Shown here: positions 4,852 to 9,933 of the stretch, in pieces
How the letters are laid out: each line of letters opens with the position of its first letter
How positions within the stretch are numbered: the stretch's first letter is position 1
DNA from: Paracoccus sp. (in: a-proteobacteria)
GTDB taxonomy: Bacteria; Pseudomonadota; Alphaproteobacteria; Rhodobacterales; Rhodobacteraceae
NCBI RefSeq assembly: GCF_030538755.1
Contig: NZ_JAUNTJ010000013.1
Coordinates: forward strand, 1-64,000
DNA length: 64,000 bases
Direction: 5' to 3'
Position numbers and translations under genes: made by a program
The notes under the pieces: generated by a model
Databases searched by the model: none
Seen by the model: the letters and a program-made list of their open reading frames with translations, nothing else
Told to the model about the DNA's origin: nothing

Positions 4852-9218
<4,367 letters not shown>

Positions 9219-9220
9219 AT

Positions 9221-9235
9221 GTTCTCAAAAAGTTC
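9221..9235 (+). promoter_or_regulatory. LexA (SOS) box 1, GTTC-N7-GTTC
   Basis: GTTCTCAAAAAGTTC is an exact GTTC-N7-GTTC, the LexA recognition site of alphaproteobacteria including Rhodobacter. It begins three bases after the recG stop and 59 bases before the start of the 31-codon gene. Confidence 0.85.
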
Positions 9236-9258
9236 TTTACAAGCCGCGGGCGATGTGA

Positions 9259-9273
9259 GAACAAGATGAGAAC
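9259..9273 (+). promoter_or_regulatory. LexA (SOS) box 2 (reverse orientation)
   Basis: GAACAAGATGAGAAC is an exact reverse complement of GTTC-N7-GTTC. It lies 38 bases after box 1 and 20 bases before the start codon, where it would occlude transcription initiation or early elongation. Two full sites within 53 bases suggest tight repression. Confidence 0.85.
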
Positions 9274-9293
9274 ATCAAGGAAGGAGCCATGCT

Positions 9294-9389
9294 ATGACCC
9301 GCGAGCTTATGTCCGATATTCTGGGTGCCGCCGCACTGTCGGTGACGACTGTCGTTATGTTCTGGTTGCCTGCCTTGTTTGGCGTGTGA
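9294..9389 (+). CDS. 31-residue SOS-controlled membrane peptide (SidA-like candidate)
   Basis: A 31-codon reading frame (MTRELMSDILGAAALSVTTV followed by VMFWLPALFGV) is preceded by AAGGAG at proper spacing. Residues 9-30 form one hydrophobic segment, so a single-pass inner-membrane peptide is predicted. The two exact LexA boxes upstream and the hairpin with a T run about 70 bases downstream make it a self-contained SOS transcription unit. In Caulobacter the SOS-induced 29-residue membrane peptide SidA blocks division at FtsW, and this gene has the same size, topology and regulation. Homology is not shown, since such short peptides diverge fast. A membrane-depolarising (TisB-like) role is the alternative. 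An ATG at 9289 opens only a two-codon frame. Confidence 0.72.
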   Translation: MTRELMSDILGAAALSVTTVVMFWLPALFGV

Positions 9390-9458
9390 TTTCTGCCCCG
9401 CGTTGCTTTGGTGCCATCGCCTGTGCGCCGTTTCTGTCCCCGCGACGCGCAACTTTGA

Positions 9459-9484
9459 CCGGCCCCGTCGCGGGCCGGCTTTTT
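9459..9484 (+). terminator. Intrinsic terminator of the SOS peptide gene
   Basis: CCGGCCC (9459-9465) pairs with GGGCCGG (9472-9478), followed by CTTTTT. It lies about 70 bases after the 31-codon gene and also borders the end of the convergent Fe-S scaffold gene. Confidence 0.75.
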
Positions 9485-9486
9485 CA

Positions 9487-9933
9487 TCAGGCGGCGGTGG
9501 CTTGGGCCGTATCAAGCGCCGCCAGCGTCGCATCCCACGCCAGCAGGATCGAGGCATGGCGGTTGGGGAAATCGCGTGCAGGCGACAGGGCTTCCAGCGC
9601 CTCAAAAGGGGCACCGGGCACGGGGCCACCACGTTTCAGCATCGCCTCCAGCGCATCGCGGGCGGCGGCGATTTCGTCGCGGGTGTGGCCAATGACGGCA
9701 GACCCCAGAACCGCCGCCGATGCCTGCCCCAGCGCGCAGGCCCGCACCTCTTGCGCAAAATCGGTGACTTTGCCGCCGTCCAGCACGACATCCACCGTGA
9801 CCGTCGATCCGCATTGCGGCGACCGGCGCATTGCGCTGCCTTGCGGGGCGGGCAGGCGGCCCAGATGCGGAATCGCCGCCGTCAGCGCCAGAATGCGCCG
9901 CGAATAAAGCTGCATAAGGTCTTGATCGGACAT
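9487..9933 (-). CDS. NifU/IscU-like Fe-S cluster scaffold protein
   Basis: 148 residues. The fold matches the NifU N-terminal/IscU family: the segment RSPQCGSTVTVDVVLDGGKVTDFAQEVRACALGQAS carries two of the cluster-ligand cysteines (about 41 and 65). The third IscU cysteine is not present, as in the short alphaproteobacterial subgroup. It probably acts as an assembly scaffold or carrier in the cytoplasm and could serve the Suf system, of which sufE is also in this window. It is divergent from hisI, with 55 bases between the starts. Confidence 0.8.
   Translation of the reverse strand: MSDQDLMQLYSRRILALTAAIPHLGRLPAPQGSAMRRSPQCGSTVTVDVVLDGGKVTDFAQEVRACALGQASAAVLGSAVIGHTRDEIAAARDALEAMLKRGGPVPGAPFEALEALSPARDFPNRHASILLAWDATLAALDTAQATAA

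Follow-up and report, generated by a model that had tools for sequence, protein, structure and literature searches.

Among the proteins that act in the SOS response, SulA is soluble, whereas TisB is a single-helix peptide with charges along its helix and an antisense RNA. YneA and SosA have a single membrane helix, are larger and include an extracytoplasmic part. DinQ of Escherichia coli is an SOS-regulated toxic peptide that spans the membrane once and has antisense RNAs (excerpt of PMC3567139). The target of SulA is FtsZ, while SidA of Caulobacter is a 29-aa, SOS-induced inner-membrane protein that acts on FtsW (excerpt of PMC4211646). In Caulobacter, the LexA consensus is GTTCN7GTTC, and loss of lexA leads to filamentation through sidA (excerpt of PMC12700426).

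The window analyzed here is a stretch of 64,000 nucleotides from a Paracoccus sp. (contig NZ_JAUNTJ010000013.1, positions 1 to 64,000). Directly behind recG, it carries a short gene with the following layout.

7098..9218, plus strand: recG, the upstream neighbor, matched by the own-genome recG profile
9221..9235, plus strand: putative LexA operator 1, GTTC-N7-GTTC, GTTCTCAAAAAGTTC; an exact match that abuts the -35-like TTTACA
9236..9241, plus strand: putative -35, here TTTACA and in some relatives TTGAC, as judged by eye on the window sequence and on the promoters of relatives
9259..9273, minus strand: putative LexA operator 2, GTTCTCATCTTGTTC; exact here, mostly one base off in relatives (GAAC-N7-CAAC)
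9281..9286, plus strand: Shine-Dalgarno sequence AAGGAG
9294..9389, plus strand: 31-aa microprotein with one hydrophobic stretch, MTRELMSDILGAAALSVTTVVMFWLPALFGV; ATG at 9294, TGA at 9387-9389, with conservation and codon changes as evidence
9390..9458, plus strand: structured 3' UTR, its helices being a closing stem and an inner hairpin, from covariation in 14 genus loci
9459..9484, plus strand: intrinsic terminator CCGGCCC-N6-GGGCCGG with a T-rich tail behind it, from the terminator scan (site 9459-9478) and conserved helix 3
9487..9933, minus strand: converging gene, an open reading frame whose product, named by eye, we take to be a NifU/IscU-like iron-sulphur scaffold

This layout bears out the first-pass annotation, which had read two exact GTTC-N7-GTTC boxes, an AAGGAG before a 31-codon frame, an own terminator and an adjoining recG from the letters alone. 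Both boxes are present, one on each strand, as are the AAGGAG and the frame; the hairpin and T tail follow, and the recG stop at 9218 lies directly before box 1. The terminator scan of the window region returned one site with a T tail, a result that is weak on its own because shuffles average 0.8, and the hairpin is conserved across relatives with compensatory changes. No promoter was found at the locus by a sigma-70 consensus scan. By our reading, the -35 would be the TTTACA or TTGAC after box 1, and the -10 position would fall at the second GAAC.

The likeness to SidA is one of description, consisting of LexA-type control, a length of about 30 aa and one putative membrane stretch in the same class. 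SidA, LexA-controlled, about 29 aa long and located in the inner membrane, sets a precedent for such a design among these bacteria. Of the match to SidA in size, topology and control that had been claimed on first reading, the near agreement in size holds for the Paracoccus branch, in which the N-terminus is shortened and the peptide, with its one hydrophobic stretch, has 31 aa. It is looser in size elsewhere, since the peptide ranges from 31 to 45 aa and is most commonly 40 aa long (84/152). Unlike SidA, the Rhodobacteraceae peptide, mostly about 40 aa long, is encoded behind recG by a gene whose two operators keep a fixed distance and whose 3' UTR is structured, and the peptide profile (A3, below) is at chance level in 380 genomes of the class outside the family, among which Caulobacter is not necessarily represented. 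In the role proposed below, YneA of Bacillus and SosA of Staphylococcus resemble it as SOS-induced division inhibitors, but its chain ends with the hydrophobic stretch. SulA too shares that proposed role, SOS-induced division inhibition; in contrast to SulA, 28 members of A2 had no match to any Pfam family, SulA included, at E 0.1 or better.

To describe the operator pair in relatives, we used 43 loci fetched by the peptide alone, comprising 20 genus loci and 23 from a family search. Each of the 43 has recG upstream of the peptide, and in 42 the gap is no more than about 200 bp. Box 1 is exact in 42/43 (ATTC in L009), the second box reads GAAC-N7-xAAC in 42/43 (GGAC in L039), and the starts of the two boxes are 37-39 bp apart in every locus. 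The commonest form of the operator is GTTCTYAAAAAGTTCTTTAC-N16-GAGAACAAA-N4-CAAC. In L005 of G017 (about positions 350-1430), the one locus where recG is farther off, the distance to the SOS unit is about 1.1 kb; the operators and the peptide are intact, so the unit is independent of touching recG.

A scan of the GTDB collection (84,980 species) with the operator pattern gave at least 118 stretches, a count that is not proof of absence elsewhere. Among the matches listed, recG lies upstream in 118/118, within 400 bp in 117 and at 545 bp in L082, and the whole peptide is encoded in 115/118, the other three being cut by the end of the locus. Because the scan selected on the operator, its evidence consists of recG and the peptide alone. 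A converging relative of the downstream gene lies within 1,200 bp in 79 of the 94 such loci with room for it, again among the matches listed. The listed stretches come from genera that we take to be of Rhodobacteraceae type, or from MAGs recorded as Rhodobacteraceae or alphaproteobacterial.

The window contains five exact boxes against 1.59 expected, a number reached by 0 of 100 shuffles, and the pair at 9221 and 9259 is the only closely spaced one among them. Across the whole genome there are 120 exact matches, and the control pattern written backwards gives 60, which suggests that roughly every second single box may be there by chance. Among 100 of these 120 places, one other pair falls within 60 bp (C17:43166 and 43177); there, at G000:C17:43166-43191, three in-phase GTTC half-sites form two overlapping exact boxes. 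The same genome encodes lexA, and an exact box (C24:41314-41328) stands 27 bp before the lexA domain match. Among 30 of the 120 places that were fetched, exact boxes also precede a RecA-like frame, at a distance of 60 bp, and a UvrD-like gene, 21 bp from its longest frame; named by eye, the products are presumably RecA and UvrD. Together, the operators and the LexA of the genome itself strongly support the predicted membership of the microprotein gene in the alphaproteobacterial LexA (SOS) regulon. Elsewhere in this genome, at 1501-1515 of L069 (G000:C10:41488), the box GTTCTTGTTATGTTC equals a LexA box common to two early Caulobacter SOS genes (excerpt of PMC12700426).

Within the genus, the peptide has a match at E ≤ 1 in 24 of 25 genomes (own included), and the genome without a match is 71% complete. 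We fetched 20 of the 24, leaving out G019, G002, G009 and G007, whose matches reach only E 0.0013 to 0.06; L011, a near copy of L010, was left out of alignment A1. The nearest relative among those with names is a Paracoccus MAG (L170) with a 90% identical peptide, and further Paracoccus-type relatives are L083, L132, L151, L168 and L180, which bears out the placement in Rhodobacteraceae made on first reading. A first search of the family (394 genomes) added 29 new loci, of which 23 have a homologous short frame behind recG together with an exact box; the other six (L023, L028, L029, L037, L042 and L047), without recG and without a box, were dropped as non-members. With a cut-off of E ≤ 0.05 per genome, the profile A3, built from 52 sequences, matched 358 of 388 Rhodobacteraceae genomes (357 of 387 genera), compared with about 19 genomes expected by chance. 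The locus counts given here are not fully independent because at least three pairs of loci are the same genome region (L006/L180, L035/L090 and L038/L128). Lack of conservation in relatives had been named at the outset as what would speak against the gene; instead, the frame is found in 358/388 family genomes and stands behind recG in 43/43 peptide-found loci. As judged from these predicted loci, the module is conserved across most sampled Rhodobacteraceae genera and is not a product of chance.

Outside the family, the signal drops to chance level. In a sample of 385 genomes of the class, the five listed family members match, and the other 380 gave 22 weak matches (best E 0.0024) compared with about 19 expected by chance. 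In a set of 30 fetched recG loci, the single family member has a box within 400 bp of the end of recG, and 0 of the 29 non-family loci do. These counts suggest that the module originated with the Rhodobacteraceae. A tblastn search of 72,556 plasmid and 50,697 phage records found no copies, with low power given the 42-aa query.

Thirty family genomes had no profile match. For 20 of these, which were listed, the true end of recG was recovered in 13. Six of the 13 (G044, G073, G212, G098, G130 and G202) have an exact box and a frame of 36-42 aa with one hydrophobic stretch directly after recG, and these frames look like divergent members missed by the profile. The AT-rich loci L238 (G212), L240 (G130) and L236 (G073) kept the box and a hydrophobic frame of 36-40 aa, with a sequence that has drifted past the profile. 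The other seven recG loci are without box and without peptide. Among those seven genomes, lexA was detected in four, from which it follows that the microprotein gene is dispensable for an SOS response, and was undetected in three (G048, G207 and G235), one of which, G048, is 82% complete. These three family members, with neither a lexA match nor a box or peptide behind recG (L235, L237 and L234 for G207, G235 and G048), perhaps represent lineages that lost the SOS response. G073, a 74% complete genome, has the box and the peptide and no lexA match. Joint loss of the gene and LexA was also considered: lexA was undetected in 5/20 unmatched genomes (six with G099, below the cut-off) compared with 0/10 matched ones, a difference that is suggestive only (P = 0.11 or 0.07).

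Conservation and charge in the peptide were counted in 155 of 161 loci (150 unique sequences). The near-invariant residues are D0 (150/150), G3 (148/150), L15 (143/150) and P18 (146/149), the D and G counts being partly a matter of construction because loci were picked with a D/E-x-x-G/S anchor. The helix core contains 1 charged residue in 2,699 positions, and there is none after the proline. The single hydrophobic helix claimed on first reading is thus upheld as one hydrophobic, nearly charge-free stretch read from the sequence. Ahead of the D, the net charge averages +1.13 (+1 or more in 106/152), which suggests an N-in orientation. A conserved helix face was not significant by permutation (P = 0.16).

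The codon changes speak for a protein-coding gene. Between the window (L001) and its close relative L002, we counted 8 synonymous changes (22.5 sites) and 2 non-synonymous ones (64.5 sites; Fisher P = 0.0003 with the counts rounded), which shows purifying selection on the peptide in the closest pair tested. Over 66 disjoint pairs, many of them saturated, the pooled dN/dS is a moderate 0.39. The locus is very probably a real, LexA-regulated protein-coding gene. Searches of Pfam, NCBIfam and PHROGs gave weak matches from single members alone (best E 0.0043) and no family shared by members, so the PHROG and NCBIfam identities were rejected, as was a lead to cytochrome oxidase subunit IIa, which consisted of one sub-threshold Pfam match (E 0.15). 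No relative was found by sequence among solved structures in the PDB.

We propose that the peptide is a SidA-like, SOS-induced division inhibitor of the Rhodobacteraceae, a membrane brake, and see about an even chance that this is correct; the divisome as the target is the part that we infer. In this model, LexA would sit on two operators 38 bp apart, covering the -35 and the -10/start region, and keep the gene nearly silent. Upon DNA damage, activated RecA would lead to cleavage of LexA and to a short monocistronic mRNA encoding the 31-45 aa peptide. The peptide would enter the membrane as a single charge-free helix, oriented N-in and with its end at the periplasmic face, and bind a membrane partner through its conserved D-x-x-G...L-x-L-P helix. 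The partner would most likely belong to the late divisome (FtsW, FtsI or FtsN), so that septation would be delayed until repair is done. Conservation, operators, coding selection, the single charge-free hydrophobic stretch and the structured 3' UTR are the elements that can be read from sequence. LexA binding and induction, promoter placement, and membrane insertion and its direction are predictions of the model. Counting against the division reading, double LexA operators also stand before non-toxic SOS genes. The first-pass annotation had suggested an SOS division inhibitor or membrane toxin; a microprotein gene under selection, with LexA-type operators and one hydrophobic stretch, stands in most genera, while either role would be a further step.

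The second of those roles, a membrane toxin of the TisB/DinQ type, is possible but rather unlikely. Such a peptide would be SOS-induced, lower the membrane potential or disturb the membrane, slow growth and aid survival of damage, with the structured RNA helping in its control. Small size, one hydrophobic stretch and double LexA-type operators would suit it, but the almost charge-free helix core contrasts with the charged helix of TisB and disfavors a charge-bearing, pore-type toxin. DinQ, SOS-regulated and single-helix like the Rhodobacteraceae peptide, offers a precedent for toxicity and has antisense RNAs (excerpt of PMC3567139). At the Paracoccus locus, in contrast, no antisense RNA was identified: Rfam gave two sub-threshold, chance-like matches in window positions 9000-9700, one of them over the terminator. 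The weak, single-member matches in Pfam, NCBIfam and PHROGs also speak against a toxin.

Many membrane microproteins modulate other membrane proteins, and the partner in the SOS response could be a transporter, a respiratory enzyme, a protease or a repair or segregation factor instead of the divisome. We regard this as unlikely. In its favor, a partner is suggested by the near-invariant D, G, P and L, and the position behind recG is conserved; against it, no obvious membrane partner stands among the neighbors, the downstream gene being converging and soluble-looking.

The transcript itself also carries conserved structure. In an alignment of the 3' UTR from 14 of the 20 genus loci (A5), three helices, terminator included, are formed with 95.5% of cells pairing. 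Two-sided changes occur in 12 of 21 pairs, a level reached by 0 of 500 shuffles and compared with at most 4 in slid versions. Searched against 13 more loci of the Paracoccus group, the covariance model R1 recovered the element in 11 (one of which, L180, repeats the model-building locus L006); of the six genus loci outside A5, it finds L005, L011, L018 and L020, with L015 and L016 missed at E ≤ 1. Over 57 chosen loci in all, E is below 1e-5 in 14, and the signal of R1 fades outside Paracoccus. No Rfam family reached the gathering threshold in the relatives L014, L048 and L113. Pairing between the 5' and 3' ends of the mRNA was rejected, as matched ends were no better than mismatched ones (71/151 better, P = 0.38).

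Beyond Paracoccus, short C-rich motifs recur. We counted motifs in 151 loci with enough sequence, 126 of them non-Paracoccus. In these 126, CTGCCTG is present in 100 3' UTRs (shuffled mean 3.2) and CTGTCCC in 82 (shuffled mean 3.8), whereas the reverse complement of each occurs in 1. A control stretch of recG contains CTGCCTG in 28/122 and CTGTCCC in 0/122, which makes the frequency of CTGCCTG in part a matter of local codon use. The form [C/T]GTCCC, present in 109/151 loci, is flanked by a stem of at least 5 pairs in 67 of the 109, compared with 18% when the flanks are shuffled, and 45 different stems are involved. Because the motif is mostly stem-flanked, many of the transcripts would have a C-rich hairpin loop, of a kind that might pair with ribosome-binding sites. 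The 3' UTR, covarying in the genus and with CUGCCUG and GUCCC motifs in many relatives, may be a regulatory RNA.

These features invite the reading that the RNA is the main product, an SOS-induced 3' UTR regulator with C-rich loops, and the peptide secondary. The covarying structure in the genus and the strand-specific, stem-flanked motifs agree with such a product, but the peptide is under purifying selection with near-invariant residues, 42/151 loci are without [C/T]GTCCC, CTGCCTG recurs in the recG controls, and the 3' UTR of the window, folded alone, is no better than shuffles (z -1.0). We consider it very unlikely. A combination with the division brake is doubtful: a dual-function SOS transcript, fixed behind recG in the ancestor of the Rhodobacteraceae, would release from a cooperative double operator both a division-halting microprotein and a 3' UTR RNA whose C-rich (CUGCCUG, GUCCC) loops silence other mRNAs. 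That the boxes are chance matches before a meaningless short frame is hardly conceivable, for although chance may account for roughly every second exact box that stands singly in this genome, the operators (42/43), their spacing, their place and the peptide (358/388 genomes) are conserved across the family, which refutes it.

The Rhodobacteraceae, with Paracoccus, Rhodobacter, Ruegeria, Roseobacter and hundreds more genera, are abundant and well studied. In the titles and abstract openings of open-access papers, PMC6473078 and PMC11580390 among those on the family, we found neither a short SOS gene behind recG nor a Rhodobacteraceae SOS division inhibitor; subscription papers may mention one. 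The LexA sites predicted in silico for Dinoroseobacter shibae, as given in the excerpt of PMC6473078, concern lexA, pde2, flagellar genes, dprA, recA, GTA and pilus genes, and not a recG-adjacent microprotein. Presence in roughly 90% of genera does not guarantee a Pfam or NCBIfam model, and the small size of the gene is probably the reason that it has none. Given its presence in 357 of 387 sampled genera and an operator pair that is strongly conserved, this microprotein is a concrete candidate for the SOS division brake of the Rhodobacteraceae.
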